From positions 1-53,304 of the IMG/VR virus record IMGVR_UViG_3300028840_002576: a stretch of DNA of 53,304 nucleotides; one strand, written 5' to 3'. The stretch's first letter is position 1. Each line of letters begins with the position of its first letter. This stretch comes from a virus. A program made the translations under genes and the position numbers. The notes below the pieces were generated by a model, which was not told the origin of the DNA, made no database searches, and saw only the letters and a program-made list of their open reading frames with translations. Shown here piece by piece: positions 1,339 to 53,052 of this stretch.

Positions 1339-2754
1339 ATGACCCAGATCACAGACAAGCCAATGCCAAACGATGAGAATCTCGAAGAGTCGATACTGTC
1401 AACTTGTTTCGTTGCCGGCGACGACCTGGTCGAGATTCTCGACCTCATTGAACCTGATTACTTCTACAAGACAGCTTACAAGATAATCTTTCAGGCGATA
1501 GTTGACATATCCTTCAAGGCGAGATCGGTCGATCTTGTTTCAGTTGTTACGAGGCTGACCGACAAGAAGCTTCTCGAGAAAGCCGGGGGCGCCCTAAAGA
1601 TATCTCAGATAGTCGACGCTCCAATAGCGGTTGATATTGAATATTCCTGCAAGAAACTCGAAGAGAAATTTCTATACCGCAAGGCGATCGAATACTGCTA
1701 TGCCACAATCAAAAAATGTCAGCTTGGCCAGGATGAATTTGACGATGTTATTGATTACTTTGTTGATTCATCCCACAAGATTGCAGACGGGACCAAGGCC
1801 GGGGATCCTGTGATCAAGATGCAGGATGCCGTATTGGCCGCTGTGGATGTCTATGAAGATAGATTTAAAAACAAAAAAATAGTCACCGGTGTACCATCCG
1901 GAATTCACGACCTCGACTACATGACATCCGGCTTTCAGCCTGGGGACTTCACATTAATCGCAGCCAGGCCGGCAATGGGGAAAACAGCTTTCGCTTTAAA
2001 CATTATCCGGAACAATGCCAAGAAGAAAATCGGCGGACTATTTCATTCGCTCGAGATGCCGGTACAGCAGTTGATGGACCGGTGGGTCGCGATGGAAACA
2101 AGAATAAACGGGATGAAGGTCAGGGTCGGTGATTTCACGAAAGACGAATTCGCAAAGGTGACCGATGCCGTTCAAAGCTTTTATGACCTGCCAATATTCA
2201 TCGATGACCGTGGCGGCCTGAAGTTCTCTGAGATCCGGAAAACTATTCGCCGGCAGGTAAAGATCCATCCTGAAATCAAATATGTCATTATCGACCATAT
2301 CCAGCTTGTCCATGGCAACAACCCGGACAACCGGAACAACGAGCTTGATGAGATCTCAATGGGATTCAAAACCCTGGCAAAGGAATTAAGGATAGCGATC
2401 ATAGGCCTCGCTCAGTTAAATCGTGGGCTTGAAAACAGGAACAATCCATTCAAGCGGCCGAAGCTTTCCGACCTCCGGGACAGCGGCACCCTCGAGCAGA
2501 ATACTGACAACGTGATATTTATTTATCGCCCTGCGGTCTATGGCGACAATCTTAATCCAGAAAATCCAGAAGAGCAGGTCGAGATCAATGAGTCTGACTG
2601 CGAACTGATAATAGCTAAACAGCGCAATGGGATGAACGGTAAGGTGCGATGTAACTTTTTTGATAAAATCCAGACATTTACGAGTCAGATGAAATCTTCA
2701 CCTGACGAACTATATGTCAAGAAAAATGAGGAGAAAAAGCATGAGCATGAATAA
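1339..2754 (+). CDS. dnaB: Replicative DNA helicase, DnaB family
   Basis: 471 residues, the usual length for DnaB. The N-terminal domain (about 10-110) begins with the typical 'NLEESILSTCF' text. The RecA-like domain has Walker A ARPAMGKT at 209-216, SLEM at 237-240, Walker B VIIDHIQL at 316-323, LAQLNRGLE at 357-365 and the sensor/arginine-finger block DLRDSGTLEQ from 378. It unwinds the fork as a hexamer in the 5'-3' direction and would be loaded by the preceding protein. The acidic/Lys-rich C-terminus overlaps the next gene by 14 bp. Confidence 0.95.
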   Translation: MTQITDKPMPNDENLEESILSTCFVAGDDLVEILDLIEPDYFYKTAYKIIFQAIVDISFKARSVDLVSVVTRLTDKKLLEKAGGALKISQIVDAPIAVDIEYSCKKLEEKFLYRKAIEYCYATIKKCQLGQDEFDDVIDYFVDSSHKIADGTKAGDPVIKMQDAVLAAVDVYEDRFKNKKIVTGVPSGIHDLDYMTSGFQPGDFTLIAARPAMGKTAFALNIIRNNAKKKIGGLFHSLEMPVQQLMDRWVAMETRINGMKVRVGDFTKDEFAKVTDAVQSFYDLPIFIDDRGGLKFSEIRKTIRRQVKIHPEIKYVIIDHIQLVHGNNPDNRNNELDEISMGFKTLAKELRIAIIGLAQLNRGLENRNNPFKRPKLSDLRDSGTLEQNTDNVIFIYRPAVYGDNLNPENPEEQVEINESDCELIIAKQRNGMNGKVRCNFFDKIQTFTSQMKSSPDELYVKKNEEKKHEHE

Positions 2755-4051
2755 AACCGAAATGATTTTAAAGGCTTACAAAGAAGATAAACATTTTAAC
2801 CGTGGTGAATTCTCAGATGAGCACGACATTAATCGATGTTTCATATCCGAGGTTATTGGTAGGTACAAGAAATCCGCTGGCTTAAAAAACAAAGTGAAAT
2901 TCCAGGGGGCGGATCCCGGGAGTGAGAAGGAATCGAAACAAATGGCGAAGATCACCGAGACCATGGATTCAATCCAGGTTGAGACGCAGGGCAAGGATAT
3001 CCGGACGGCCGACGGCGCCCTCGAGTACTGCGGAGTCGATACGGACAAATGGGTCATCACGAAGAAAATAGTTAACTTTTGGGATCAGTCAAAAGATCAG
3101 CGGAACTGGCAGGTCAAGGTATGGTTGTCCCCTAAGGAAGAGAGCTCGGTCGAGGAAACAATCGACAGACTCATGGAGCGCATGCCGGAATTCAAATATA
3201 GCAAATTTGAACCTAAGTCGGTGGCGAGCGGCTGGGACAACTCCGGGAACATGGCGGTGATTGCAAACCTGGACGCTCACCTGGGCAAGTTAGCTTGGGA
3301 TGCCGAGACCGGACAGGGCGATTATGATCTCAATATCGCAATAGATGATTATAATCACGTAACCGAAACGAACCTCCAGCGATGCGCAATGTTTAAGCCA
3401 GAAAGGATCATGTTCGTAATTGGGCAGGACTTAATGCACGTCGAGAACATGGAAGGCGTGACCCCGAAAGGAAAGAACGTCCTTGATACAGATACCAGGC
3501 TGCCCAAGCTTCAGGATGCCGCGATAGATATCACGATCCAGAGCATAATGAAATGTCGAGCGTTGGCGCCAGTAGAGGTTATCCTCGTCCAGGGAAACCA
3601 TGATCAGACGTCCTCTTTATGGCTTGCCAAAGTTATCAAGGCGTGGTTCAGAAATGATAAACACGTAACGGTTGACGACACTCCCCGGCTGCGCAAGGCC
3701 CGGAGGTGGGGCAAATGCTTTATCGGCATGGCCCATGAAGTTATGCCGTCGAAGATGCCGTTCCAAGTTGCTGAATTTGCAGTACAATTCAAAGAGGATT
3801 GGGCTAAGTCAGAATATTATGAATGCCTATTCGGACACAAGCACAAGAAGAATGAATATCGCGTTGGCAGCCAGGCGACTCACGGCACAATGTTATTTAG
3901 ACAGTTGACCGCATTAAGCCCGATCGACTTCTGGCACTATGAAAATCTATTTGTCGATGCCGTCCCCGGTGGCGAGGCCCTTGTCTACAACAAGACAACC
4001 GGCTGCATCGCAAACTTTACTGAGTGGTGCTTTCACAAAAAATCAAAATAA
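2741..4051 (+). CDS. Metallophosphoesterase with N-terminal helix-turn-helix-like region
   Basis: 436 residues from the ATG at 2741, chosen because GAGGAG lies seven bases upstream; an in-frame ATG at 2714 has no such site. Residues 1-45 look like a small HTH. The C-terminal half is a calcineurin-like phosphoesterase: DAH 178-180, GQD 228-230 (usually GD), GNHD 285-288 and GHKHK 365-369, all metal ligands. Related phage proteins are often annotated as exonuclease or DNA-repair phosphoesterases. Position after dnaB supports a nucleic-acid substrate, but the substrate is not shown by the sequence. Confidence 0.85.
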   Translation: MSMNKTEMILKAYKEDKHFNRGEFSDEHDINRCFISEVIGRYKKSAGLKNKVKFQGADPGSEKESKQMAKITETMDSIQVETQGKDIRTADGALEYCGVDTDKWVITKKIVNFWDQSKDQRNWQVKVWLSPKEESSVEETIDRLMERMPEFKYSKFEPKSVASGWDNSGNMAVIANLDAHLGKLAWDAETGQGDYDLNIAIDDYNHVTETNLQRCAMFKPERIMFVIGQDLMHVENMEGVTPKGKNVLDTDTRLPKLQDAAIDITIQSIMKCRALAPVEVILVQGNHDQTSSLWLAKVIKAWFRNDKHVTVDDTPRLRKARRWGKCFIGMAHEVMPSKMPFQVAEFAVQFKEDWAKSEYYECLFGHKHKKNEYRVGSQATHGTMLFRQLTALSPIDFWHYENLFVDAVPGGEALVYNKTTGCIANFTEWCFHKKSK

Positions 4052-17848: not shown

Positions 17849-17931
17849 AGGCAGTTAAACTGGGTGAATTCTCAAATAGGATGGGCTTATTTGAGGAAAA
17901 CCTCAAACCTATAACAAGGGAGATTTGTATT

Positions 17932-18666
17932 ATGCATTCAGCTATTTGTAAAAAATGTGGAAATGAGTGGTTGTTAAATGGAAAGAAAGGCGGTCCATGT
18001 TGCGACTGTGACTGTTATTACCTCGGGATAGCCCTGGAGGCCGAATTGATAGCCATCAAGGCTGCGGCAAGTGACCGGGATGAGTTGTCATCCATGACCC
18101 TGGACGCTATGACCAGGTACGCAGAGTCCTTCAGGTATACGTTCATCGTCGAACACGACATGGAGGATGATCTCGAATTCGGCGCTCGGGTCCGGTCGAT
18201 CGATATCGAGGAGGAGGATAATGGCTGCGGCATGCTCGAGGAGGATGACGACATTGCTGGCGACATTATTTGCGACAGGTGCGAAAAGCATGTACCTGTT
18301 TGGAAAAGGCCCGGACAGGACGATGACGTAGCGCAAATGGATCACGTTGCCAATAAGCTTGGCTGGGGTCGGATCAAGGATGACGACGGCGACGACTGGG
18401 ATCTGTGTCCTGTATGCCTGCGGTTCTTTGATGATCTCAGGAGCCAGACATCCGATATGTTCCAGGACTTCTTTAACGGACATATCGAGAACGGCCGGCT
18501 GCAGGTAAAGGCAATCTCGACGCAGGACATTCCTGAGTACCTGAAGAATGAGACCTGCGATAATTGCGATAGTCTAAAGGATTGCGTCAGGAACTTTTAC
18601 GAGGTTAACAATTTTTTTGACCTTGACGATTGCAAGAATAACTGCGACAGTTGCAAATGTAAATAG
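17932..18666 (+). CDS. Acidic multi-zinc-finger protein (244 aa)
   Basis: 244 residues from the ATG at 17932 (GGGAG upstream); an in-frame ATG at 17881 lacks a site. Three Cys clusters: CKKC...CCDCDC (about 6-30), CDRC...CPVC (about 117-163) and CDNC...CKNNCDSCKC at the C-terminus. The middle is very acidic (EEEDNGCGMLEEDDD). Several structural zinc sites are likely. It may be a protein-protein scaffold or nucleic-acid mimic; no family recognised. Confidence 0.55.
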   Translation: MHSAICKKCGNEWLLNGKKGGPCCDCDCYYLGIALEAELIAIKAAASDRDELSSMTLDAMTRYAESFRYTFIVEHDMEDDLEFGARVRSIDIEEEDNGCGMLEEDDDIAGDIICDRCEKHVPVWKRPGQDDDVAQMDHVANKLGWGRIKDDDGDDWDLCPVCLRFFDDLRSQTSDMFQDFFNGHIENGRLQVKAISTQDIPEYLKNETCDNCDSLKDCVRNFYEVNNFFDLDDCKNNCDSCKCK

Positions 18667-35349: not shown

Positions 35350-37856
35350 TGAACGAAGTCCCTCAAAAAAGATACTCGATTAACAGATCCGGATCCGCGC
35401 CGGCAGCCGGAGGAGTCAATACATATCACGACAAGCCTACCCTGGAGCTCGGAGGATATTCGAACGCTGAGAACGTCCGGATCCATGGTACAGCACTCGA
35501 GATGCGCGGAGGTCTCACGCCTCACAACAAGACAGCAGAGGCATCAGCTATAAATAACTTATATTCTTACAAATGTGATCGAAATGCAGCTATTAGCTTC
35601 TTTGCCCAGCTTGCCGATGGGGACGTTCTCGAAGCAGATGAGAAGCCACCGACAACCGCAGGGTCAAACGACTTTGGCGATGTTGTCATGGATTATAGCG
35701 CACTGAAGGGCAATGCCTCCGGGGCAACCTTGTTACCGGCATCCTTCGCAAAGAACGACGACACCTTGATACATTCAAATGGAATGATGCAGCATGTTAT
35801 CTGGCCAGGCCCAGATGCAGCGCCGAGAGCAGTCTACTGGCAGAACTCAGCAGCAACACCGGTCAGGGTCAATGATGGAGGGGTTGATTATAGCAACCTA
35901 TTGACCGACAACGAGAACACCGACGAGACCCCGACCTTGACGTATACCGTCGCGAACTATGACGGACTCTATATCTGTACTGACTTCAAGGCTAATTCAT
36001 TCACATTTAATCTTGGATCAGTGGTTGCCAATGGGACGACGACCGCAAAGATCCAGAGCTTTAACGGTACCGGATTCACAGACGCAACGACCGGGACCGA
36101 TGGAACCAGCGGCCTCCAGCAGGATGGAACCTTTACCTTTACCGCTGCGGCCGGGGAAGTTCCAACCTTCATGTTTGGTATGTCAGGATACTGGTATCGA
36201 CTATATATCAGCGCAGGCGATGCAACAGAAACACTTCGATTTGTCGAGGTCTCGTACACCGGGGCATGGCAGACGATCGAAAACGTGATGGACCATTATC
36301 CATATTCAGTTGTAGAGGTAGCGGTCGAAGGCGCCACAGCAGCAGAATACAGGACATATGCAGCCTCGGTTGTAGATATATCGAGCCTTCCAACAGGCGA
36401 CTATGTCTATGTCGCAACGACAGATATGGCGTGGGCTCTTCAATTCGACGTAGGATCAACACCGAATACCACCGCTTCCACAACTATATCCGCTGTGGAA
36501 TTGTGGACAAACGCCTCCGGGTGGGCCGCAGTATCGGGACTCGAGGACGGAACCGCTGGCATGTCTCAATCAGGGGTTGTATCCTGGATCCGATCTGATT
36601 ATGACAAGCAATCTTTTAATGGTTCAAGCAACCACCTATACTGGCTACGCTTCAAGTTTGATGATGATATATCAGCAGAAACAACCTTTGGCGTCCAGGC
36701 AATCAGTTATTTTGATATCGAGAATCTCGGGACGACAGGCCTAATATCGACATCGTGGAAGGATCGTGGCGTTTATTCCTTTGGAAAGTTCCCGAGAGAT
36801 TTATATGTGTCGAGAAAGAGCCGACCGAATATATTGAATGGAGATGACTTTGCGATCCTTTCACCTGGGGACGGCCGCAGGAACCCTGCAGTCGCTTGCC
36901 AATCATTCCATAATGAGCTCATGGTATGGCAACGGGAGGAAGGCACGCAGGGTGGATGCCTAACGGTATTCGAAGGTTATTCTCCGTCAACCTTTGGAAA
37001 GCTTGTGCTATCAACAAAAATAGGATCCTTTTCCCAGAAGTCAACCTGCATAATGGATGGAGCCCTATTGACGACCAGGACCGACGAGACGGCCCAGACG
37101 CTCGCATTTTTCATTTCTCATTATGGCGTGTTCATGTCTGATGGTCGAGTTGTCAAGATGATATCCGAACCGATACAGAATTATTTTGAGCCAGGACGGT
37201 CAGAGTGCATTACCCGGGGACAAGAGAATAAAATGTGGATAGGCATCGACTCTGCAAAGAAGGTCCTCCGGCTGGGACTGGTATCCGGATCCGGGGCAAC
37301 AAAGCCGAACGTATTCCCGGTCTATGATCTAATGTCCGGAATGTGGTCCTTTGATGTATTCCCGACAGGCGCCGACGGGACCGGTATATATCCGACCTGT
37401 TTCGCCGAGGTCGAGGCTAACTCTGGTGATATATTTAGTCTACAGTATATGGGCGATGACTACGGACGTGTATACAAAAGTGACAATTCAATCACCTATG
37501 ACCAGGCCAATGCAACGGCGGTCTATATTACATGCAAGACTCGTGCCGAATTCAGTAATGGCGGAAACCTCCTGGATCTCAGGGAAGTCACATTGAGAGG
37601 TGGAGCCAATTCGGATTACACCTTAACAAAGAAAATTTATGTCAATAACGTATTAGACTCGAATGAGACCGAGACCTTCACAATGTCAGATGCAGACTCC
37701 GGAAGCACATACCGCGAGCGCATACTCGAGAGGGCTTATACTGAATTCCATTTATCATTAGAGTTGTCCTGGGTGGATGCAGAAAGTGGAGGGAACGCCG
37801 CACCGTCAATGTATGATATTATATACGACCTCGGTGCAGAGCCGAAGAAACGGTAA
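35349..37856 (+). CDS. Nozzle/stopper-like tail protein (835 aa)
   Basis: 835 residues, beta-rich. Starts 'AGGVNTYHDKPTLELGGYSNAENVRIHGTALEMRGG', the text of phage tail nozzle/stabilisation proteins (P22 gp10-like and T7 gp12-like), and later 'MWQREEGTQGG'-type propeller blades and 'GVFMSDG'. About 120-450 contain two inserted beta modules with Gly/Thr repeats. It probably closes the portal-adaptor channel and forms the tail tube end. Coupled to adaptor and following gene. Confidence 0.65.
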   Translation: MNEVPQKRYSINRSGSAPAAGGVNTYHDKPTLELGGYSNAENVRIHGTALEMRGGLTPHNKTAEASAINNLYSYKCDRNAAISFFAQLADGDVLEADEKPPTTAGSNDFGDVVMDYSALKGNASGATLLPASFAKNDDTLIHSNGMMQHVIWPGPDAAPRAVYWQNSAATPVRVNDGGVDYSNLLTDNENTDETPTLTYTVANYDGLYICTDFKANSFTFNLGSVVANGTTTAKIQSFNGTGFTDATTGTDGTSGLQQDGTFTFTAAAGEVPTFMFGMSGYWYRLYISAGDATETLRFVEVSYTGAWQTIENVMDHYPYSVVEVAVEGATAAEYRTYAASVVDISSLPTGDYVYVATTDMAWALQFDVGSTPNTTASTTISAVELWTNASGWAAVSGLEDGTAGMSQSGVVSWIRSDYDKQSFNGSSNHLYWLRFKFDDDISAETTFGVQAISYFDIENLGTTGLISTSWKDRGVYSFGKFPRDLYVSRKSRPNILNGDDFAILSPGDGRRNPAVACQSFHNELMVWQREEGTQGGCLTVFEGYSPSTFGKLVLSTKIGSFSQKSTCIMDGALLTTRTDETAQTLAFFISHYGVFMSDGRVVKMISEPIQNYFEPGRSECITRGQENKMWIGIDSAKKVLRLGLVSGSGATKPNVFPVYDLMSGMWSFDVFPTGADGTGIYPTCFAEVEANSGDIFSLQYMGDDYGRVYKSDNSITYDQANATAVYITCKTRAEFSNGGNLLDLREVTLRGGANSDYTLTKKIYVNNVLDSNETETFTMSDADSGSTYRERILERAYTEFHLSLELSWVDAESGGNAAPSMYDIIYDLGAEPKKR

Positions 37857-39181
37857 TGAAGGATTATTCAAGAAAATCCTATATATCAACAAATCCTTAC
37901 CCGGAATACATGAAGGTCAATCCGAGTAAGGCAATCTGGAATACCATCCTTGAGGTGTACCCGTTCCTGTCAGAGTTTTCTCAGAGTCAATTGGGATCAT
38001 TCGATCGATCGGTTGAGGATTACCTGCGACAGTCGGAAAGGAAAAAGCCTTATAACGGCAGGCCATTCGAAATGATGGAGGACGAATTCGAGGGATTTCC
38101 AGGTATTTGGCCGGATCTTCCTCCAGGAGAATTCGACTTTCCATGGTCGACTCCGGGCAATTTACCAACCCCAGACACGTTTACCGGTGGCGCCGCTCAC
38201 TTCTCGGTCAATATCCAATACTGCTATTGCGAGGGCGGCGGACAAGAGGTGACGGCCAGGGGGTCCCAGAATATCCTATCAGTTTCTCCAGAGGTAGGAT
38301 CCATTGACGGAATAGTTGTGCAGAATGCAAGGACATGGGTATTCACATACACCGCTCCTGCGGAGGTATTCGGGGCAGTCGAATTCACTGTAAAGATGGT
38401 GGACCCTACAACAGGACTCGTCGGAAATGCGACTGACAGTATTATTAAATGCTCGACATCTTCATGCTGCGATGATGTCGACGAGATGACCTGGGATAGC
38501 TCAACGAGCGCATCAACGATCAATAGGGAAACAAGCGCAACGGTAGCGGTCCAGGACGGAAGAGGTACTTATACGTGGTCTGTTTCAGGTACCGACGTCA
38601 CCCTCGAGAACGAGACAACAACAGGGACATCCAATACCCTTATTGCCGGCGCCTCAGCGTGCGGAACGGCAGTAATAACGGTTGAGGATGGTTGCGAGAC
38701 GGTTGTTACCGGGGAGGTGCGAGTAGTCGAAGGGAGCTCATGGCAGCAGGAAGGCGGAGATCCTAATTGCTGTATGGGTGGGAATACCGCATACGCAGGC
38801 GGACCCCAGCCAGGAACAGGGTCATATACCCAGACGGTAACCTCTGGAGGAACAAGGCAGAGCGAAACAGTGGCAGGCCCTTCAACAGGAGGCGGATGTA
38901 CCAGTTGTGGGGCTGCGTGTGCGACTGGAGCGGATAATTTCTGTTTAACATGGGGGTCATATAGAAATAATAGTTCGCCGCTATGTTTTAATGGATTTTC
39001 AGGATACTACCCAACACTGCCTCAGTCATCTCCAGATGGATGTTACTGTGCGGATCACGGTGCGAGCCAGTGCGCCGGTGGATCAGGCAGGCAGTGTACG
39101 CCGGCAAACGAAACTGTTTATATAGCGCACAAATATGTTGTTACAAGCCAGGTATGCGAAAAATGGAAATGCAATCCATAA
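37856..39181 (+). CDS. Cys-rich virion protein with Ig-like domain (441 aa)
   Basis: 441 residues. About 1-95 is a Pro/Phe/Glu-rich adaptor part ('FSQSQLGSFDRSVEDYLRQ'). About 110-305 looks like two Ig-like folds ('FSVNIQYCYC' to 'DGCETVVTGEVRVVEG'). The last 130 are Gly/Ser/Cys-rich. About 22 Cys, including CC and YCYC pairs, are unusual for a phage structural protein; disulfides or metal sites would be expected outside the cytoplasm. Likely a tail-tip or surface protein. Confidence 0.55.
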   Translation: MKDYSRKSYISTNPYPEYMKVNPSKAIWNTILEVYPFLSEFSQSQLGSFDRSVEDYLRQSERKKPYNGRPFEMMEDEFEGFPGIWPDLPPGEFDFPWSTPGNLPTPDTFTGGAAHFSVNIQYCYCEGGGQEVTARGSQNILSVSPEVGSIDGIVVQNARTWVFTYTAPAEVFGAVEFTVKMVDPTTGLVGNATDSIIKCSTSSCCDDVDEMTWDSSTSASTINRETSATVAVQDGRGTYTWSVSGTDVTLENETTTGTSNTLIAGASACGTAVITVEDGCETVVTGEVRVVEGSSWQQEGGDPNCCMGGNTAYAGGPQPGTGSYTQTVTSGGTRQSETVAGPSTGGGCTSCGAACATGADNFCLTWGSYRNNSSPLCFNGFSGYYPTLPQSSPDGCYCADHGASQCAGGSGRQCTPANETVYIAHKYVVTSQVCEKWKCNP

Positions 39182-41637: not shown

Positions 41638-41667
41638 ACACTAAATCACTCTTTAGGGAGACAACAA

Positions 41668-44600
41668 ATGGCAGACGAAACACCGAAAATGGATTGGAGC
41701 ATTTTGCTTCAGGATGATGAACCAATTTCAGAAACACCGGCAGTACCAGAGTTGCCGGAACAACCCCAGCAGGAACAGACCTGGGGATCCATTGCTAATC
41801 AAGATTGGTCGGAAGTGGATCCGGTTGACCCTGCTATCCCCGCCGAGCCTGCGCCTTTTTCCTCTGAATATGAGGGGTGGAAGGCTATTAAGGAAGGCAC
41901 GAAAGCACTCCCTAAATATTTCTCTCAAATTCCAAAATCTATTCAAGAAACAAGGAAAGAACTGTTCGACAAGATTGGAGCAGTTGATCCGGTTGAAGCT
42001 ATGCCAGAGGGCGTTCAGGATTTTATGGGCGCCATTGATATAGCCAGAAACCCGCTGGCAGGCCTCGGCAAGCTACTTTCCTATGGCGATGAGCAGGGCT
42101 TCTTTGATGCAGATCAGGATTACGCGAAACGCAAAGAGAATAAAGACACCTATACAAAATACTTTGAAGATCTCACCCAGATGGGACCCCAGACAATCCT
42201 GAACTATGTTGCTGGTGGTATCGGAGGATGGGCCGGCGTCGCAGCAACCGCAGGCGGCCAGATCTACGGTGGATCATATATGAATTTCCGTGAAAAAGGC
42301 AACACTCCCATGGAGTCCATGGCCCTTGCCCTCACCGACACAGCAATCCAGTTGCCGATTGAAGTCCTATTGACAACCGCTATTATCAAAGGTCCCAAGG
42401 GTGCGATGAACCTCGGCAAAAAGCTTCCAGGTGGAAATAAGATATTTACAAATATCGAGAAGGGCCTCAAGACAAAATTTAAGAACGGCGAGAAGTTCGC
42501 CCAGTTTGCGGACAGCTATGCCGGTAGAATTCTCGGCGGTGGTATGGCAGAAGGAGCCGAGGAATTCGTCCAGAGTCTCTCCGGGATCCTGACGGAGCTC
42601 GCCGGCCAGTGGCTTCGAGACGAAGAGATTACCGCGGAAGGAATACGAAAACTCATCAAAGAGAAAACATCAGAGGGCCTATGGTCCGCTCTGGTTGCAT
42701 TCCCCCTCGGTGGTCTCGGTGGTGGCGTTGGTAAAGTTCTCGAGCCAGTCAAGGACAAAAAGGATCCTAACGATAATATCATTCCTGATGCCGGCAAGCC
42801 TGCTATCAATCCGGATCCGGCGACTGAGAAAATCGATGCGGCCAATATCCTCGAGGAGGCCGGCAAGCGATGGCTGGAAGAGGAAGAGGCAGCCGCAGGA
42901 GCTCCCCCGGTAGATGAAACCCAGATAGAGATAGGTCCTGATACCGTTATCGGTGGACCCCAGGAGATCGGTCCGGACACGGTGATCGGTGGTCCCGCTC
43001 AAGACTTTTCAGTAATTGCTGAAGAGCCCGAAACCACTGAAAGATTCAGAGTTGAAACAACCCCGGATCATCCAGCCGCAGAGTTCTATGGCCTGAAAAA
43101 GGGCGATAAGAAACACGCCATATCTATTACAGATAAGGAATCCCCTGCATACAAAGCGACCTTTGTGGCCGAGATGGGCAAAGAGGATGTAGCTATCGCC
43201 AAGAAGGAAATGGAATTCCAGGCCGGCAAGCGCGACGAGGAAGGCTTTATTAATACCTGGATGGCTAACCCGGAAGCTCGGCCGTGGTGGGCATCAAAGC
43301 AGAAGCCGGTTGAATTGAAATCCTACAGCACAGACCTTGAGCAGATATATAACGACTCCATCATGCAGCGTGGGGACCTGAGCATGAGAGAGGAATCATA
43401 TGCAGTCAACAGCTTCAGGGAGTTAATTGAAGAAGATACAGGCGCATCAGACATTTATGGCGATGACTTTATATCTCAGATGAAGGATGAAGAGCTCCGT
43501 CCGGCCCAACGTGCTTGGAAAAATATAATCGAGAAATTTTTTGATCGACCTGTGTTCTATGTAAAAGAGAGCGAGGCCTCCAAGAATGACATGGCAAGTC
43601 CGGTAAAGCAATACAGGGCTGCAGCAAACCCAGTCCAGGGAGCAGTAATCTTATTCGACAACCAGACAGCGGCAAACGTCGGAAGCATGTTCCACGAACT
43701 AACCCACAACATGCGCAAGACAGCGCCACAACTTTACGGAAAGTTACACAAGTTTATCCAGGAGAACGTTGATAAACAGAGCGACGCATTCAAGAGGCTC
43801 GAGCGTGCGGTCAGGAAGGCCTATGGTGGGCGTGACCGTGAGGGACTAATTCAAGAGGAGATCAATACCGCTATCATTACGGACCTTGTAAAGGGTGACG
43901 TATTCCAGGGGGAATTGTTTCGTAAGCTAAAGGCCCAGGACCCCGGAACATTCGAACGCCTTGCAAAGCATATAAAAAATGCTCTCAAAAAATTAGTTGA
44001 ATACATTACCAGGCATAGGAACAAGCCAGGGTATGCAGCACTCCTGAACGATGTTAAAAAAGCGGAGAAAGAAATCGCAAACATCTTTGCAGAATTCCAG
44101 GCTGAAACGCAAAAGGGACCGTGGGTGAGAGGTATGTCGGTTGCAGCCATTAAAAGAAATTCTGAAACCCTTATGCTCGAGCTCAAGAAAGACCAGACAA
44201 TAAATAATAAATTCACCTCCAAGATGGTCGACACAATAAGCAAGAAATTACAGGGTACCGGTGACGCCGGCCAGATGAGAGCGACAATAGAATCATGGAT
44301 CATGAAGGGCGAGATCAAGGAAGAGGAGTATCGATGGTCCGGGCTCGATGAATTCCTGATGTCCTGGGAATTGGCAAACGGCAAAAAGAAAATAACGAAA
44401 GACCGTATCCTGCAGCACATTGCCGAGAACGCCGTCCAGATCGAGGAGGATATTAGGTCAACCACAGGCGAAGATGTTGAGAAAATCGATATACCACAGG
44501 CGGAGGAGGATATCGCCAAGATAGAGTACTACCTGAAGGATTCGTATGGCATAACGCTGCGAAAGGAATTCAGGGGTAACAATCAACCATATTTCAATGA

Positions 44601-47600
44601 GATAATGTTCAAGGATTATGACGAAGACACAAAGCCTTATTACCTTACAGATCCAGGGATAAAAGCAGTTATACTCGAGAAAGCCGGCGAAGAAGCACTT
44701 GAGTTTGTTAATAATGCGGTAAAAACCCAGACAGAGGTTAGTGACTATCGCGCCTTTCTTTACACAAGAGGTGAGGGCGGAGTTTTATACCAAGGTTATG
44801 TTGCAGAGGGTCCTTATAAATCATATTCAGAAGTTCTCTTGTCTGTACCAAATATCGACGACATGGATGGCGGCCATTGGAGGAAGAACAAAAAAGTTAT
44901 CGCCCACGCGAGGGTAACGGAAAGAACTCATCCTGATGGAGATGAAATATTTCATGTCGACGAGATCCAGAGCGACCTACATCAAAGGGGCAGGGTCCAT
45001 GGATACCGTTCAGAGAAGGAAAAAATAAAAGAACTCCCAGAAGGATCTCGAGTTGAACAAATCCCGGTAGTCGGAAAAAGGGCCGGACGCTGGAGAGTAG
45101 AACTCCCGGCTGGAACTAAGACGCAGTACGGTGGATATATATTCAATGGAGACACAAGGGACGAGGCGATACAGAGCGCCCTTGATGAGATGAATCAATT
45201 CCAAAATAAACAGGCTCCTGACGCACCATTCAAGAAGGGCTGGGAGTTACTCGTATTAAAGAGAATGGTCCGAATGGCTGCAGACCAAAACAAGGCTGCG
45301 ATTACGTGGGACATAGGACAGAACCAGGCTGACCGTTATGACCTCAGGAAATTTGTGAAAGAGGTGGGATACTCTATCTCCACTGAGAACTTATGGGCCT
45401 ATGACGATAATGATACAGAGGTTATCAGTGAAGATGTCGAAGTCGATGAGCTTGATAAAATTAAAGAGTATCTCGGCGAAGAGGTAGGCCAAAGACTCAT
45501 AGACAAGATCGAATCGAGGAAGTGGGAACGTGGAGAATACACTACAACCTTTGACGAGGACGAGGGAAAATGGGTGCTTGTAGATCCAAACGGAGAACTG
45601 TTTCACGACCAGGGTGGTGACCTCTTAACATTCGACGAGGAGTATGAGGCCCGTGAAACCCTTGAAGAGTTCCTGGATAGATCCGATGAGCGTGAGGGTG
45701 GCGTTCGCATTAGAGGGCTCGAGCTTGAAACCGGTGGCGAAGGTATGATTGGCTTTTATGACAAGAAGCTTCCTGCCATTGCCAATAAATTCTTTGGTAA
45801 AAAGAAATGGGGCAATTCAAAGGTATTCAAGACAAAGCTTGACGGAACAAGTGAAAATGAAATCGTAAAGCCAGACGTTTATGTTGACGGCGTCCTTGTT
45901 ACAGACAGAAACCTCAACCGGTTCATCAGAAATTTTGAGGATGAGGATATCGACTTCATGATAAAAGAGGCGATTGAGTGGAGGGAAAAGACGACAACAT
46001 ATTCTGCTCATGAACTGAGGGATGATATAGTCAAGTACCTCGAAGGCCTAAAAGAAAAAGGCTCAACGATTGAATGGAAGAATCCGGAAACACAGTTCGA
46101 AGTATGGGCTCTGCCTATAACAAAACAAATGAAGAAAGCTTCGCAAGAGGGCTTGATGCCTCTGTTCCAGAAGAAGCTTGATGTCGACACCAACAAGACA
46201 GCAGGCCCGGAGCTTGCCGCCAGTGCTATTGAGAATGCAGTACTTGGAGTTGGTGAGGTTAAGATAGACAGCGGTGACTTTGCTTCAGGAGATATGCTTA
46301 GGAGTATAGGCTTCGAAAGCACAAGGGCCGGCAATTATAAATTTGACAGGAGGATACCGAAAGATGTTGATATCATTAAAGGACTGTACAAGGCTTCTTG
46401 GAATACAGACCTCGAATCTAATCGGGCCGCAAAGATCGTTCTTGATAAGATCTCTCAGCAGCTTAATAAACAGAAGAGGACGGAACTGGGTCGAGAAGAA
46501 CAGAAGCGAGGTAAGGAAACGCTTAAAGAATACCTTAACGACTCTTGGGAAACCCACAGCATAGCGTCAAAGGAAACCAGTAAGGGTGACCTTCGTGCGA
46601 CAAAGAATATATTGTTAAGGCCAAATGGAGTGAAGTCCGGAAAGGGCCGGCAGTTGATGGTACAGGTATCGAACAACTTCGCCAGGGAAGAAGCGACACA
46701 AATGGGCGACAGTTATTTTGACACCCTATACTCAAAACGAGAGGGATACGACCGTCCATCAGACTTTTGGGAAGTTCCTGAATGGATGGGGCGCCTCGCT
46801 AAATCTATGCCCAAAGCAGACGTCTATGTGGTAAGAAATATTGCAGAGGCAAAGAAGTTTATTGAGCAGGCCGGATATGGCGACAATATTTTCTTCAGTG
46901 CAATGGATGCAAATAAGGACGTCATCAAAACAATTATATCCGATTACAGTGGCAAGGTTAAGATCGGTGGTTATACGGATCCTAATTACTTTGGAAAGAA
47001 AGCAACCTTCCTCGGTAGCCCGGAAGAGGCCGCCCAGTCAGTCGGAGTTGAATTTAAGCCTGGAGTTGATTACAGACATTTCAAGGGTACGAAAACGATA
47101 CCAAGGCTCGAGATGTCCAGGGGATGCCGGCACAAGTGCGCATTCTGCACGGTAGAGAAATCGATAGTTGCCGCAACCGATGAGCAGATCGATGATCAAC
47201 TCGAGAACTTCAAGTCACTGGATTACAAGCTTGTTTATCTGAATGACAAGACCTTTGGCCAGGCAAAGAACTTCGAGAAGCTAATCGATATCAAGAAGAA
47301 GATCGAAGCTGTCAATCCTAATTTCCAGGGATTCATAATCCAGACAACAGCACCACAGTTCTTAAAAATGAGCGATAGCTTTCTCCGGGAGTCCGGCATT
47401 AAGTTTGTCGAGCTCGGAGCAGAGACTATCAATGATGATATCCTCGCCAAGATAAATAAGCCGCACAGGGTAGCTCATATAGAGAAGGCCGCCGAGAAGA
47501 TCCGTAGGCTCAAGATGAACTTTGTCCCCAATATCATGGTTGGCCTTGCAGGAGTTGACAAGGGAAAGCTCTGGACAGAGACCATCAAAACATATGGGAA

Positions 47601-50600
47601 CACCCTCAAATTCTTAAAGAAGCATAAGGATATTGTTTCTCACGTCAATGTATATGTTCTTGCAACATACGAAGGCACCGCCCTTCATGAACAACTCGGA
47701 ACCAATGAAGTGGACTCCGATGAAAACGTCATTGAAAAGTCATGGCTGAAAAATCAAAAGCTTCATGAGAAATTTTATGGCGATGTTCTGGAATACGGAA
47801 CACAGCAATTAAATGAACAAAGAGATCTTGGCGAACTAACAAATGAAGAGATCGAAAAGATGTCTTTCGAGGAGAGGGCTAAATTAATCCTCGGACCAGA
47901 TGCAAGCTTTGACGACATTGACAAACTTGCCGGACAGGCAAAGGATGTTGTTGACAGCTTGACGCCAGACCTGCAGAAAGATATCGAGGATGATATCAAG
48001 AAAGGCGCCAAGGCTGAAGGTGAGCCAGGTACCGAGTCTTATCAAAAGGGACAGTATCAAATATTCGAAATAGCCAGCAAGGCAAAGGGCCTAAAGAAGG
48101 TCCGGAAATATCTTGAAACAGTCGACGAGATGAATGGGCTTCCGGTTACACCAGAGCTTATAGAGAATCTCGGAAGGCTTGCAGACAAGCTATCTTCAGA
48201 CAGAAAGCGAGCAAACAAATTCAAGAAAGTTATACAATATCGAGACGAACTTGCTACAGGAAAGGCAACTCTCAATGATCCAGAATTCGTGAAGAAGTGC
48301 GAGAAGGTAGGAGGTATCCAGCCCTACACCGTGAGACATACCGCTGACAACTTCTTTATAGGTCGGAATATGCGGTATGGTAAATTCGAGGAAGCCGGAA
48401 AGCTATCTATATTCGACACTGGTGACCAGGGGAAGACGACAAAGAAATCGTATATCGATCCTGTCACTGGCCGTACAAAGTATATAGAGAAGAGATACGA
48501 CTCTGAGGGCAACAGGCTTATTGAGGCGCCAATATTCTCAACCGATCGAGCGACCAGGCTGAAGCAGATCAAAAAGATTGTGCTTAAAAATAAGCAATAC
48601 CAGTCATGGTATCAGAACTGGAAAGACTTTATGTGGCAGTTCATAAAGAATGATGTTGACGAGACGAAGTTAAAGAGGATTATAACCATATCCGGCATGC
48701 TCGGCGCAGGCAAATCGCCACAATCACAGCAGGCTATATGGGCCGAAACAATCAATCAACTCGAGCATGGCATGAGGCCTCGTAAAGTTGCCGGCCAAGA
48801 GCTTCCAAAGATCATGGATATCTGGAATGGTAAATATGATGAGCTCCTCGGGAAGACCGATGATGAAAGTATTGCCGAGATCCAGGCAACATTCGGCAGA
48901 AAGATAGGGCCTTACCTGGCAGCCGCGATGGATCCTAATAGTCCTAATGTTCTTGTTCTTGATAGGCATATGCCGAAGGGATGGGGATATAACGTCCTCG
49001 CAACAAAGGATAACCCCCAAGGTGGATGGAATATGCATCCCGCAGTTGAAGCAGAAATATCAAGGGACATATTTGAGGTGGCAAAGGACCTGAAGATTTC
49101 AGTTGCAGGAGTACAGGCCGCATTATGGTTTGACTTCAGAACCCCTGCGGCAGACGTCTCTGACATAGTCGAGCTCTCACAGGTGCAGCCAGGTAAAAAT
49201 GTTCCGTTCGTATTTCACAAGCAGACATTTCCGGATCCTGGAGTTGGTATTCATTACAAAAAAACTCCGATGAAGCCAGGCGATTATGTTGTTGGTGCGT
49301 CAGCAGATGGAAAGGTTAAATATAATTCATACTCAATGACAGATATTGGAGAACGCATCGCCAGAGGTACTAAGGACTGGCCCTATCAACCGGTTGTCTA
49401 TATGTACACTCCAGGCGCAAGGCCGGAGACCTCTGTTCGAGGTGGCGGACGCAAGGGATATACCTTTAAATTTTCGAATCAGAGAATTTATGATGGAGTC
49501 AACGACCCATATAAATACTGGGATACCGCCAGGAGAGAGCACAAGGAGTCTCCAGAGGCCTCACTGACAAACATCTTTCTCACGCTCGTAAAGAGAACGG
49601 ATCAATACGATGGCGCACTTGTTACGCCGGCTCACGGTGACAAGCCATGGATGATGATTTTCGACCAGGCCGCTGTAGACGACTTTCCGGAATTAACGAA
49701 CGTCGGCATCTCAGATATCGTCGAATCTATCGAGGGGAAAAGGGATGTTGTCAGGGCAACCAAGTCGATGGCAAGCAGGGCGAAACAGTTTGAAAAGTAC
49801 CTTAAATGGGTAAAGGATCATGGTAGGAAATATAGCGAGGTAACCATAGAAAGATCTTATTATTCACTTGCCAGGTTCGAGGGTGCAACAAGTGGACAGC
49901 ATGAGCCAGGTATCGGCTTAAAGCTTGATGGTCCATTGAGATCACAGAGAGCTTATCTTGCTGAAGTCGCAATATCAAGAGGACAGCGCGAAGCATACTT
50001 GATTCACGAACCGCGAACGGAAATGGACTATCCGGACTACATTGACTGGTCAGAGGCAAAGATGTTTATATTCAAGGCCATCAATGAATACAATGAAAAT
50101 CCGGAGAAGCTTGCCAAAGACCTTTCTGCAGCAGGCTTGAAGGAATTCAATATAGTAATGTCCCCGTCTTCAGGGATACTGACTATCGAGCAAGTTGTGT
50201 TCTCAGATGAGAATGCAAAGCAGATGGCAGATATCATGGAGAAGTTCGCAGACAAGGGACATCCCCACAACCAGGTAAAAACAATCCATACCGAGGTTAT
50301 CACAGATGAGTCTGGTATGGAAATGATAAAGGAATACTGGGGAAATAAAAAAGGCGAGGAGATTATAGAAAATGCCAAAGAAAGAGGAGAAAAATACCAA
50401 GAAGGATTACGTCGCAGAGTTGATAAGCAGAGGGCTTCTCAGAGAAAAGACACCGGAGATAAAAAACCTAAAGGGTCAGACGATTCTGGACTTGGGACAG
50501 ACCTCCAGGTCAGAGTAGACGACAAGAAGACTCAAGAGGTTCTTGACCGTGTAGGCAGGAACCCTGTAAAAACTATCGACACAATTAAAGAAAAGCTTGA

Positions 50601-53052
50601 CTATAAGCCAGGGAAATTCACGACCTCGTATATCGATAAGCTTCATCCGCTAAAGATGTATGCCGGCGCGAAGTCCTCGAGCTACATGCAGCACAGGTCT
50701 ATACCAGGCGTGCAGTCCTCTATTAATGCAATGATGGAGCACGGTACACTGAAGATGGACAAGTCGGGAGTATTGACGACGGACACAAAAGGCAAGGGCT
50801 TCATACCATTCCTGAAGTCTCTGAAGGGTGATAGCGACAAATTCTTTTATTGGTTAATAGCCCAGAGGGATCAGGCCAGGGAAAAAAGAGACTCGAAATA
50901 TAAACCCATGTTCACGCAAGAGGAACGAAATCGCATATTTTCTTGGACAGGAAAACGGTCGAAAACAGGAAAATCATGGGGCGAGGTTAATGCTGAATTC
51001 AGAAAGTTCAATGACTCAGTCCTGCAGGTAGGCATCGATTCAGGCCTCCTGGATCCGGCGATGGTCGCACAGTTCAGGGATCAATTCTATATTCCGTTTT
51101 ACCGTATATTCGAGGATGAGAATACGACCGCTGAATTTATCAAGGCGCCTGTCAATACAAAGAAGATCATTGCGGCTCAGATCAAAAAGCTGAAGGGATC
51201 TAAGAAAAAGATCGGGGATCCGCTCGAGAATATTCTCGCGAACTGGTCGCACCTTATCAAGCAGTCCATGGCTAACAGTGCCAGGCGATCGTCCTTCAGG
51301 GAATTACAGGACGTATTAACAGAAAACCTGGAGCCGGCAGTTGAAGCGGTACCGTGGAGCGAGACCGTGATATTCAAGTCCGGTGACGATGGAAAAACAA
51401 CATTCGTATACCCGAAGGACAACGTCGAGGTTCTTGGATTTAAAGACAAGGGCAAGACCCAGTTCTTCAAGGTGAATGATCCGGAACTGTTTCAGGCCCT
51501 ATCGCTTCAGAATAACATGAGATTGCCGGCATGGTTGTCAGCGATCCTCGGGGCTCCAAAGGCTCTGTTAACATTCGGTGCCACAATAACGCCGAGCTTT
51601 ATCGCAGCAAATGCAACTCGGGACACGTTGCACACATACACAATAAGCAAGGGATTTAAGCCTTTCTGGGATACCATGAAGGGATTCTATAAAACACTGG
51701 TCAAGGATCAGGACTATGTTGAATATATGGCATCCGGGAATTCATTTGTTGGTAGTTATGTGAAAGCCGAGACCCCGGAAAAATTCTCCAAGTACGCAAA
51801 AAAGATTGCCAAGAAAGAGGGACAGGGCGCACTCCGCAGGATACTGAGCTCACCTTCAAAGCTCTGGAGATTCTGGGAGGGATTTACAGAGGCTTCAGAA
51901 AATGCAACGAGATTAGCCCTATATTCGAAGAGGCGTGCAGAGGGATACAGTATCCTTGAATCATCCTTCGAAGCCCGGGACATAATGGACTTTCAAAAGA
52001 AAGGCGCCAGTCCGGTCATCCAATATTTGATCGCGACAATTCCATTCCTGAATGCCAGGATCCAGGGACTCGCACGCATGGGCTCTGCAATGGCGGAGAA
52101 TCCAAAGATGTATGCATTAAAGGGCGCCTCGGTCGCAATGGCATCAATTGCACTATGGGCCGCCTTCGCAGATGACGATCGATACAAAGAGCTCGAGGAC
52201 TGGGAACGGTTTTCATATTACCATTTCTGGATCGGTGATAAGCATTTCAGAATTCCTAAACCATTTGAGACCGGCGTTATCTGGTCATCAGCATGGACAG
52301 CCGCAGCAGACGTGATCAAGGGCAACAACGAGGCCAAGCATATTACCAGGTTTATTGGTGCCGCTCTTCTTGATACGTTCGCATTCAACCCAGTTCCGCA
52401 GGCAGCCAGGCCAATACTCGAACAGTACATGAACAAGGTATTTTTCACTGGCAGACCGATTGAGTCTATGGGTATGCAATATAAAGAGCCGGCAAATAGA
52501 TATTATCCATGGGATAGTGAATCAGCTATCGTCCTGGGCAAGGCTCTTGGCGTATCTCCCAAGAGGATCCAGGCCCTTATCCGGGGGTATCTGGCAGGCC
52601 TCGGTATGGGAATCATGGGTGCCGCTGATATCATGGTTAGACAATTTGGCGAATGGCCTGAACGTCCGGAATCTGGAATAGAGTCATATCCGATGATCGG
52701 CAGATTTGTCAGGTCAACACCGAACAGATACTCAAGATATCAGAGTGAATTCTATGACATATACGACGAACTTAATCTATTACATAAGAAAGTTAGAGAC
52801 GCTGATGCGGAGGGTGACTTTGCCGGCGCCGAGGAGATCCGGAAGGCGAACCAGAAAAAATTCGAAGCATTCCCACAGGCTAAGATTATTCGCCGGAATC
52901 TTGCACGCATACGAAAAAACACTCTTGCAATATGGAAAGACAAAACAATGAGCGCCGAAAATAAACGCGAGGAGCTCGACAGATTAACAACTAAAAGGAA
53001 TACCCAGGTCAAAGAATTTTATGACTGGTATAAGAAAGCTATAAACTCTTGA
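41668..53052 (+). CDS. Giant polyvalent virion protein with zincin and radical-SAM domains (3,794 aa)
   Basis: 11.4 kb in one frame, over a fifth of the window. In order: acidic/Pro linker; hydrophobic Gly-rich segment (about 179-245), fitting membrane or ejection use; zincin-like peptidase with HELTH at 676-680; a polyvalent-type domain with EIQSD at 1099-1103 and end block 'LPITKQMKKASQEGLMPLF' (about 1480-1505); B12-binding-like region (about 1730-1800); radical-SAM domain with CxxxCxxC at Cys1820, 1824 and 1827; a domain with GMLGAGKS (2343-2350), LDRH (2431-2434) and GVQAALWF (from 2481); an ART-like polyvalent domain starting 'VGIHY' (about 2526-2670); and a C-terminal LPD38-like part (about 3300-3470, 'ARDIMDFQKKG', 'IPFLNARIQGL'). 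Polyvalent proteins of this kind are thought to be injected with the DNA to act on the new host. A fused radical-SAM enzyme is not one I know from such proteins. GGGAG precedes the ATG. Confidence 0.85.
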   Translation: MADETPKMDWSILLQDDEPISETPAVPELPEQPQQEQTWGSIANQDWSEVDPVDPAIPAEPAPFSSEYEGWKAIKEGTKALPKYFSQIPKSIQETRKELFDKIGAVDPVEAMPEGVQDFMGAIDIARNPLAGLGKLLSYGDEQGFFDADQDYAKRKENKDTYTKYFEDLTQMGPQTILNYVAGGIGGWAGVAATAGGQIYGGSYMNFREKGNTPMESMALALTDTAIQLPIEVLLTTAIIKGPKGAMNLGKKLPGGNKIFTNIEKGLKTKFKNGEKFAQFADSYAGRILGGGMAEGAEEFVQSLSGILTELAGQWLRDEEITAEGIRKLIKEKTSEGLWSALVAFPLGGLGGGVGKVLEPVKDKKDPNDNIIPDAGKPAINPDPATEKIDAANILEEAGKRWLEEEEAAAGAPPVDETQIEIGPDTVIGGPQEIGPDTVIGGPAQDFSVIAEEPETTERFRVETTPDHPAAEFYGLKKGDKKHAISITDKESPAYKATFVAEMGKEDVAIAKKEMEFQAGKRDEEGFINTWMANPEARPWWASKQKPVELKSYSTDLEQIYNDSIMQRGDLSMREESYAVNSFRELIEEDTGASDIYGDDFISQMKDEELRPAQRAWKNIIEKFFDRPVFYVKESEASKNDMASPVKQYRAAANPVQGAVILFDNQTAANVGSMFHELTHNMRKTAPQLYGKLHKFIQENVDKQSDAFKRLERAVRKAYGGRDREGLIQEEINTAIITDLVKGDVFQGELFRKLKAQDPGTFERLAKHIKNALKKLVEYITRHRNKPGYAALLNDVKKAEKEIANIFAEFQAETQKGPWVRGMSVAAIKRNSETLMLELKKDQTINNKFTSKMVDTISKKLQGTGDAGQMRATIESWIMKGEIKEEEYRWSGLDEFLMSWELANGKKKITKDRILQHIAENAVQIEEDIRSTTGEDVEKIDIPQAEEDIAKIEYYLKDSYGITLRKEFRGNNQPYFNEIMFKDYDEDTKPYYLTDPGIKAVILEKAGEEALEFVNNAVKTQTEVSDYRAFLYTRGEGGVLYQGYVAEGPYKSYSEVLLSVPNIDDMDGGHWRKNKKVIAHARVTERTHPDGDEIFHVDEIQSDLHQRGRVHGYRSEKEKIKELPEGSRVEQIPVVGKRAGRWRVELPAGTKTQYGGYIFNGDTRDEAIQSALDEMNQFQNKQAPDAPFKKGWELLVLKRMVRMAADQNKAAITWDIGQNQADRYDLRKFVKEVGYSISTENLWAYDDNDTEVISEDVEVDELDKIKEYLGEEVGQRLIDKIESRKWERGEYTTTFDEDEGKWVLVDPNGELFHDQGGDLLTFDEEYEARETLEEFLDRSDEREGGVRIRGLELETGGEGMIGFYDKKLPAIANKFFGKKKWGNSKVFKTKLDGTSENEIVKPDVYVDGVLVTDRNLNRFIRNFEDEDIDFMIKEAIEWREKTTTYSAHELRDDIVKYLEGLKEKGSTIEWKNPETQFEVWALPITKQMKKASQEGLMPLFQKKLDVDTNKTAGPELAASAIENAVLGVGEVKIDSGDFASGDMLRSIGFESTRAGNYKFDRRIPKDVDIIKGLYKASWNTDLESNRAAKIVLDKISQQLNKQKRTELGREEQKRGKETLKEYLNDSWETHSIASKETSKGDLRATKNILLRPNGVKSGKGRQLMVQVSNNFAREEATQMGDSYFDTLYSKREGYDRPSDFWEVPEWMGRLAKSMPKADVYVVRNIAEAKKFIEQAGYGDNIFFSAMDANKDVIKTIISDYSGKVKIGGYTDPNYFGKKATFLGSPEEAAQSVGVEFKPGVDYRHFKGTKTIPRLEMSRGCRHKCAFCTVEKSIVAATDEQIDDQLENFKSLDYKLVYLNDKTFGQAKNFEKLIDIKKKIEAVNPNFQGFIIQTTAPQFLKMSDSFLRESGIKFVELGAETINDDILAKINKPHRVAHIEKAAEKIRRLKMNFVPNIMVGLAGVDKGKLWTETIKTYGNTLKFLKKHKDIVSHVNVYVLATYEGTALHEQLGTNEVDSDENVIEKSWLKNQKLHEKFYGDVLEYGTQQLNEQRDLGELTNEEIEKMSFEERAKLILGPDASFDDIDKLAGQAKDVVDSLTPDLQKDIEDDIKKGAKAEGEPGTESYQKGQYQIFEIASKAKGLKKVRKYLETVDEMNGLPVTPELIENLGRLADKLSSDRKRANKFKKVIQYRDELATGKATLNDPEFVKKCEKVGGIQPYTVRHTADNFFIGRNMRYGKFEEAGKLSIFDTGDQGKTTKKSYIDPVTGRTKYIEKRYDSEGNRLIEAPIFSTDRATRLKQIKKIVLKNKQYQSWYQNWKDFMWQFIKNDVDETKLKRIITISGMLGAGKSPQSQQAIWAETINQLEHGMRPRKVAGQELPKIMDIWNGKYDELLGKTDDESIAEIQATFGRKIGPYLAAAMDPNSPNVLVLDRHMPKGWGYNVLATKDNPQGGWNMHPAVEAEISRDIFEVAKDLKISVAGVQAALWFDFRTPAADVSDIVELSQVQPGKNVPFVFHKQTFPDPGVGIHYKKTPMKPGDYVVGASADGKVKYNSYSMTDIGERIARGTKDWPYQPVVYMYTPGARPETSVRGGGRKGYTFKFSNQRIYDGVNDPYKYWDTARREHKESPEASLTNIFLTLVKRTDQYDGALVTPAHGDKPWMMIFDQAAVDDFPELTNVGISDIVESIEGKRDVVRATKSMASRAKQFEKYLKWVKDHGRKYSEVTIERSYYSLARFEGATSGQHEPGIGLKLDGPLRSQRAYLAEVAISRGQREAYLIHEPRTEMDYPDYIDWSEAKMFIFKAINEYNENPEKLAKDLSAAGLKEFNIVMSPSSGILTIEQVVFSDENAKQMADIMEKFADKGHPHNQVKTIHTEVITDESGMEMIKEYWGNKKGEEIIENAKERGEKYQEGLRRRVDKQRASQRKDTGDKKPKGSDDSGLGTDLQVRVDDKKTQEVLDRVGRNPVKTIDTIKEKLDYKPGKFTTSYIDKLHPLKMYAGAKSSSYMQHRSIPGVQSSINAMMEHGTLKMDKSGVLTTDTKGKGFIPFLKSLKGDSDKFFYWLIAQRDQAREKRDSKYKPMFTQEERNRIFSWTGKRSKTGKSWGEVNAEFRKFNDSVLQVGIDSGLLDPAMVAQFRDQFYIPFYRIFEDENTTAEFIKAPVNTKKIIAAQIKKLKGSKKKIGDPLENILANWSHLIKQSMANSARRSSFRELQDVLTENLEPAVEAVPWSETVIFKSGDDGKTTFVYPKDNVEVLGFKDKGKTQFFKVNDPELFQALSLQNNMRLPAWLSAILGAPKALLTFGATITPSFIAANATRDTLHTYTISKGFKPFWDTMKGFYKTLVKDQDYVEYMASGNSFVGSYVKAETPEKFSKYAKKIAKKEGQGALRRILSSPSKLWRFWEGFTEASENATRLALYSKRRAEGYSILESSFEARDIMDFQKKGASPVIQYLIATIPFLNARIQGLARMGSAMAENPKMYALKGASVAMASIALWAAFADDDRYKELEDWERFSYYHFWIGDKHFRIPKPFETGVIWSSAWTAAADVIKGNNEAKHITRFIGAALLDTFAFNPVPQAARPILEQYMNKVFFTGRPIESMGMQYKEPANRYYPWDSESAIVLGKALGVSPKRIQALIRGYLAGLGMGIMGAADIMVRQFGEWPERPESGIESYPMIGRFVRSTPNRYSRYQSEFYDIYDELNLLHKKVRDADAEGDFAGAEEIRKANQKKFEAFPQAKIIRRNLARIRKNTLAIWKDKTMSAENKREELDRLTTKRNTQVKEFYDWYKKAINS

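Follow-up and report, generated by a model that had tools for sequence, protein, structure and literature searches.

A 3,794-residue protein of an uncultivated phage, of the kind thought to be injected with the DNA, contained a complete radical-SAM enzyme domain, as judged from its sequence and predicted structure. The same enzyme family recurred in about 75 other phage sequences and was repeatedly accompanied by DUF7178, a protein that resembles a DNA-repair glycosylase. This pairing, which is new here, suggests chemistry on DNA bases at the start of infection.

Architecture of the giant open reading frame

The window is the whole IMG/VR record analysed (IMGVR_UViG_3300028840_002576, 53,304 nucleotides). 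Its genes included a DnaB helicase, a ClpP-like protease, terminase subunits, a portal/head-tail connector, a major head protein, and tail proteins. The giant ORF followed the structural genes as the last gene of that module. It started with ATG, was preceded by the ribosome-binding site AGGGAG, had no internal stop, and showed continuous coding composition along its whole length. The following features were assigned, all on the + strand:

41655..41660 (+), ribosome-binding site AGGGAG
41668..53052 (+), giant polyvalent protein ORF, 3,794 aa
43693..43707 (+), HELTH zincin-type motif, residues 676-680
46585..47910 (+), radical-SAM module, residues 1640-2081, the cassette conserved across phages
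46645..47103 (+), predicted Rossmann-like region before the barrel (about residues 1660-1812), resembling a degenerate B12-binding domain
47110..47847 (+), radical-SAM barrel (about residues 1815-2060)
47125..47148 (+), CX3CX2C cluster-binding motif, Cys1820, Cys1824, and Cys1827
48601..49146 (+), DUF7178-like domain, OGG2-type DNA glycosylase/lyase-like (about residues 2312-2493)
48901..48903 (+), Lys2412, candidate catalytic lysine of the glycosylase-like domain
48961..48963 (+), Asp2432, candidate catalytic aspartate
50599..53049 (+), C-terminal scaffold module, residues 2978-3794
52174..52668 (+), LPD38 domain, residues 3503-3667

Pfam Radical_SAM matched residues 1815-1965 with an E-value of 3e-13 (50.7 bits against a cut-off of 29.5), and LPD38 (PF18857) matched residues 3503-3667 with an E-value of 3.4e-38. 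The protein had only four cysteines, three of which formed the motif CRHKCAFC at 1820-1827, while the fourth lay at 2211, outside the module. With an LPD-type domain and the radical-SAM and DUF7178-like domains on one long phage chain, the ORF fits the polyvalent proteins.

The observation made in the sequence-only reading, a radical-SAM core built into a polyvalent protein, was confirmed. Two conditions had been named that would have overturned it, the absence of the barrel and an assembly join of two separate genes, and neither was found. The barrel was present in the model, and independent assemblies carried the same fusion (L001 at 83% identity, L002 and L003 at 51-53%, and dozens more). 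Some details required correction. The "several polyvalent-protein domains" of that reading reduced by Pfam to LPD38 plus the HELTH motif, with no other match in residues 1-1639 or 2621-3111, and to these we added the DUF7178-like domain. HELTH was also present in L001, but no Pfam peptidase family was detected, so a zincin is not established. The "B12-binding-like region" is a predicted Rossmann-like region, and only 3 of 41 relatives touched Pfam B12-binding, with a best E-value of 1e-3.

The C-terminal 800 aa were homologous to giant proteins of isolated phages, with 28-30% identity to the C-termini of those of PTXU04 (podovirus) and phiARM81mr. A 3,190-aa Aeromonas phage protein annotated as virion structural was among the matches. 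In Escherichia phage PTXU04 the homologue is gp25 (28% identity), the last long gene of the structural cluster. Its authors call it a putative polyvalent protein, and its knock-down strongly reduces plaque formation (PMC11879866). In contrast to the window protein, gp25 is 2,197 aa long and has no cysteine at all, so it has no radical-SAM triad, and no homology was detected outside the C-terminal module. Peptide fingerprinting of PTXU04 particles clearly assigned gp7, gp10, gp11, and gp12 only (PMC6563267), so packaging of gp25 is not shown. Gene position and homology to an annotated virion protein are only consistent with injection of the window protein.

The 2017 survey of polyvalent proteins of phages and conjugative elements (Iyer et al. 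2017, PMC5512222) describes proteins that share with this ORF great length, an LPD38 domain, several unrelated activities on one chain, variable scaffolds, and predicted injection. The word "radical" does not occur in its main text, and to our knowledge no case of a radical-SAM domain in such a protein has been described.

The radical-SAM family

A first scan gave three viral relatives, an alignment gave 46, and a deeper alignment gave 68 contigs. Two further scans added only six new contigs, so the set of about 75 IMG/VR contigs is near saturation. All 41 distinct sequences of the alignment matched Pfam Radical_SAM and shared many invariant residues beyond the three invariant cysteines. The family was found only in viral contigs here. 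No match to the radical-SAM domain was found in isolate phages by tblastn with three queries. Bacterial species genomes gave one weak generic hit, although that scan used two patterns close to the window sequence, so distant prophage copies could be missed. Plasmids gave only generic barrel hits covering under half of the query. No full-length relative was found in the bacterial species genomes, isolate phages, or plasmids searched. No PHROG matched the radical-SAM module of the window protein, and a weak unnamed one matched in 13 of 41 relatives.

The AlphaFold model of the domain was confident (pLDDT 91.8, pTM 0.87). Its closest solved folds by Foldseek were radical-SAM enzymes (best E 4e-13), namely MtaB, AprD4, RimO, MiaB, OxsB, MgmA, and TsrM, with which it shared a barrel with an N-terminal Rossmann-like region at 11-15% identity. 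For the window domain no NCBIfam cut-off was reached, and the nearest families were PhpK-, HpnJ-, and RimO/MiaB-like, far below cut-off. RimO, MiaB, and MtaB, which are among the nearest folds and sequences, act on ribosomal protein S12 and tRNA, so it is possible that the domain, once injected, modifies a host protein or RNA (for instance a ribosomal protein, tRNA, or defence factor), with DUF7178 as an independent tool on the same chain. This is close to the expectation of the sequence-only reading. Polyvalent proteins join unrelated activities by definition (PMC5512222), and many members lack DUF7178. However, a methylthiotransferase identity was rejected, as the three more cysteines in the N-terminal domain needed for a second cluster were absent, no TRAM domain was detected, and TIGR00089 scored 29 bits against a cut-off of 251. 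The recurrent partner is also DNA-glycosylase-like, not RNA-binding. We consider this alternative less likely than a DNA substrate, but it remains serious.

A B12-dependent radical-SAM methyltransferase, in which the Rossmann-like region would bind cobalamin and the enzyme would methylate an unactivated carbon or phosphorus on an unknown substrate, is unlikely but possible. The NCBIfam relatives include PhpK, HpnJ, and other B12-type families, and OxsB, TsrM, and MgmA are among the structural neighbours. However, the B12-binding match was weak and rare, and AprD4, which gave the best TM-score, is not known to be cobalamin-dependent. The AprD4-like fold and the chemical diversity of radical-SAM enzymes would also allow small-molecule or nucleotide chemistry unrelated to DNA, such as a modified nucleotide, antibiotic-like compound, or peptide product. 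This is more doubtful still, as no biosynthetic genes were recognised beside stand-alone copies, and the neighbours that could be read were phage DNA-metabolism and polyvalent-type genes.

Thirty-nine distinct giant ORFs, taken as those above 1,000 aa (range 1,100-5,000 aa), carried the module. All-against-all BLASTP showed roughly 32-66% identity over the module in the comparisons listed, whereas little else was shared by all. The flanks fell into 21 N-terminal and 16 C-terminal scaffold groups, so the module is a shuffled cassette. About 22 further loci encoded the enzyme as a stand-alone gene of roughly 400 aa. The tree needed three changes between fused and stand-alone forms, so fusion is old and not a recent accident. 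In L001 a domain of about 130 residues (protein residues about 2070-2205) was inserted in a loop of the radical-SAM barrel without breaking the frame. It had no Pfam match, and an ART reading of this insert was not supported by Pfam.

Cysteine content

The CX3CX2C triad was kept in all 39 giants. In 16 of them these were the only cysteines in the whole protein, and 36 had six or fewer. Controls with the same C-terminal LPD38 scaffold but no radical-SAM domain had a median of zero cysteines, and 40 of 72 had none. Stand-alone versions usually carried more, 3-13 in about 400 aa. One radical-SAM giant (L027:6437-14827) went against the cysteine-poor rule, with 63 cysteines and a DnaJ-type zinc-finger domain. 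Whatever causes giant proteins to lose cysteine, the three cluster ligands are spared, which is hard to explain unless the cluster is used. We infer that the purging reflects virion storage or ejection. A dead or purely structural domain, or an assembly join, is contradicted by the invariant triad, its sparing, the independent assemblies, and the continuous coding signal, and nothing was found in its favour. The window also encodes two cysteine-rich proteins at 17881-18666 and 37856-39181 (7.3% and 4.5% Cys), in a phage whose giant protein has 0.1%.

The DUF7178 partner

In loci L044 and L045 the stand-alone radical-SAM gene was followed by a gene of Pfam DUF7178 (E 2e-38 and 4e-34). A DUF7178-like domain also lay downstream of the radical-SAM module in many giants, including the window protein. 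The window domain itself was below Pfam detection. It was assigned through L003, a homologue that matched Pfam DUF7178 at E 6e-5, and through an iterated profile in which the window protein was a hit (E 4e-4).

Two tests guarded against circularity. Among 80 giants gathered only by their C-terminus, the four with the radical-SAM domain were the same four with DUF7178, although that profile had been trained on some of them. A profile built only from ten proteins of unrelated isolate phages then found DUF7178 in 13 of 39 radical-SAM giants and 0 of 76 controls (Fisher p 1.7e-7). Several DUF7178-bearing giants are related to each other and the statistics were not corrected for phylogeny, so this test overstates independence. 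About two thirds of the giants showed no DUF7178 with the independent profile, and many stand-alone loci lacked it. DUF7178 genes lay close to 7 of 20 stand-alone genes, and were encoded nearby in 8 stand-alone loci. Two loci found afterwards, L259 and L285, showed the pairing again. Typical polyvalent domains (zincin, JAB, ART) also occur in these phages, so the co-occurrence may reflect a shared toolbox rather than one pathway. DUF7178 relatives occurred in 96 isolate-phage records, the collection in which no radical-SAM relative was detectable by tblastn.

A literature search found no paper that names DUF7178, and its function is undescribed, although one phage annotation already calls a member N-glycosylase/DNA lyase. 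Lys and Asp about 20 residues apart (Lys2412 and Asp2432 in the window protein) were invariant in 22 divergent sequences and in 10 isolate-phage proteins, like the catalytic pair of OGG/EndoIII glycosylases. The six best PDB sequence matches were 8-oxoguanine/N-glycosylase DNA lyases (E 0.01-0.4). The AlphaFold model of the window domain (pLDDT 81.8) was helical, and Foldseek ranked OGG2 8-oxoguanine DNA glycosylase/lyases, of HhH-GPD fold, first with probability 0.99-1.00, but with E-values of only 0.07-0.2. The similarity to OGG2 is weak by E-value (sequence 0.01-0.02, Foldseek 0.07). The 5-PmdU glycinyltransferase of phage thymidine hypermodification (8z2n) was a further weak structural match. 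In those pathways a radical-SAM enzyme and a glycosylase-fold transferase act on phage DNA. However, no kinase or other pathway gene was recognised among the window genes scanned, and these enzymes are not known to be virion-borne.

Proposed function

The most economical account, to which we give a probability of about 0.45, is a virion-type (probably ejected) polyvalent protein that carries a phage-specific radical-SAM enzyme and, downstream in the same chain, an OGG2-like DNA glycosylase/lyase domain. In this view the three cysteines would bind one [4Fe-4S] cluster that cleaves SAM to a 5'-deoxyadenosyl radical. The radical enzyme would repair or modify a base in DNA, and the glycosylase-like domain would recognise or process the same class of base, so that the incoming phage genome (or host DNA) is treated as soon as both enter the cell. 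Where the genes stand alone, the pair would be made inside the cell. Our data establish the fusion, the conserved catalytic residues, the predicted folds, and the repeated pairing with DUF7178, whereas cluster binding, SAM cleavage and base excision, DNA as the substrate, and delivery in the virion are inferred. No closest relative of the radical-SAM enzyme is known to act on DNA. In the boldest form of this account, phages inject with their DNA a two-part enzyme made of a new radical-SAM family and an OGG2-like glycosylase/lyase, which repairs or chemically marks the genome on arrival. Such radical chemistry on DNA carried in a virion is not excluded but doubtful.

The interpretation offered by the sequence-only reading was partly supported. 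A complete radical-SAM enzyme built into a polyvalent protein holds, injection is consistent with the data, and no result here supports an anaerobic host. That reading expected chemical modification of a host target, but the partner domain and the gene neighbours (DUF7178, DNA adenine methylase, primase) point more towards DNA. The finding adds a new class of catalysis to phage polyvalent proteins and a new radical-SAM family. The cysteine pattern is a clean evolutionary argument that the iron-sulfur site is used even in scaffolds that shun cysteine. The pairing with DUF7178, which is present in dozens of cultured phages, gives both families a testable hypothesis of DNA-base repair or modification at the moment of entry.

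Neighbourhood of the stand-alone genes

In one lineage the stand-alone radical-SAM genes lay directly downstream of a D12-class DNA adenine methylase (L111:1256-2059 and L113:7195-7992), and L112 carried the same gene pair as L111. By our reading of the sequences, L044 had primase- and SSB-like genes and L045 a primase-like gene. L044:4208-7081 resembled an "exploded" polyvalent locus, in which a SprT-like zincin, radical SAM, DUF7178, and a JAB/RadC-like gene stood side by side as separate genes. A small family of about 90 residues recurred near stand-alone radical-SAM and DUF7178 genes (L044:7568-7870, L095:6824-7105, L102:2541-2801, and L106:9426-9704), with no Pfam match for the L106 member.
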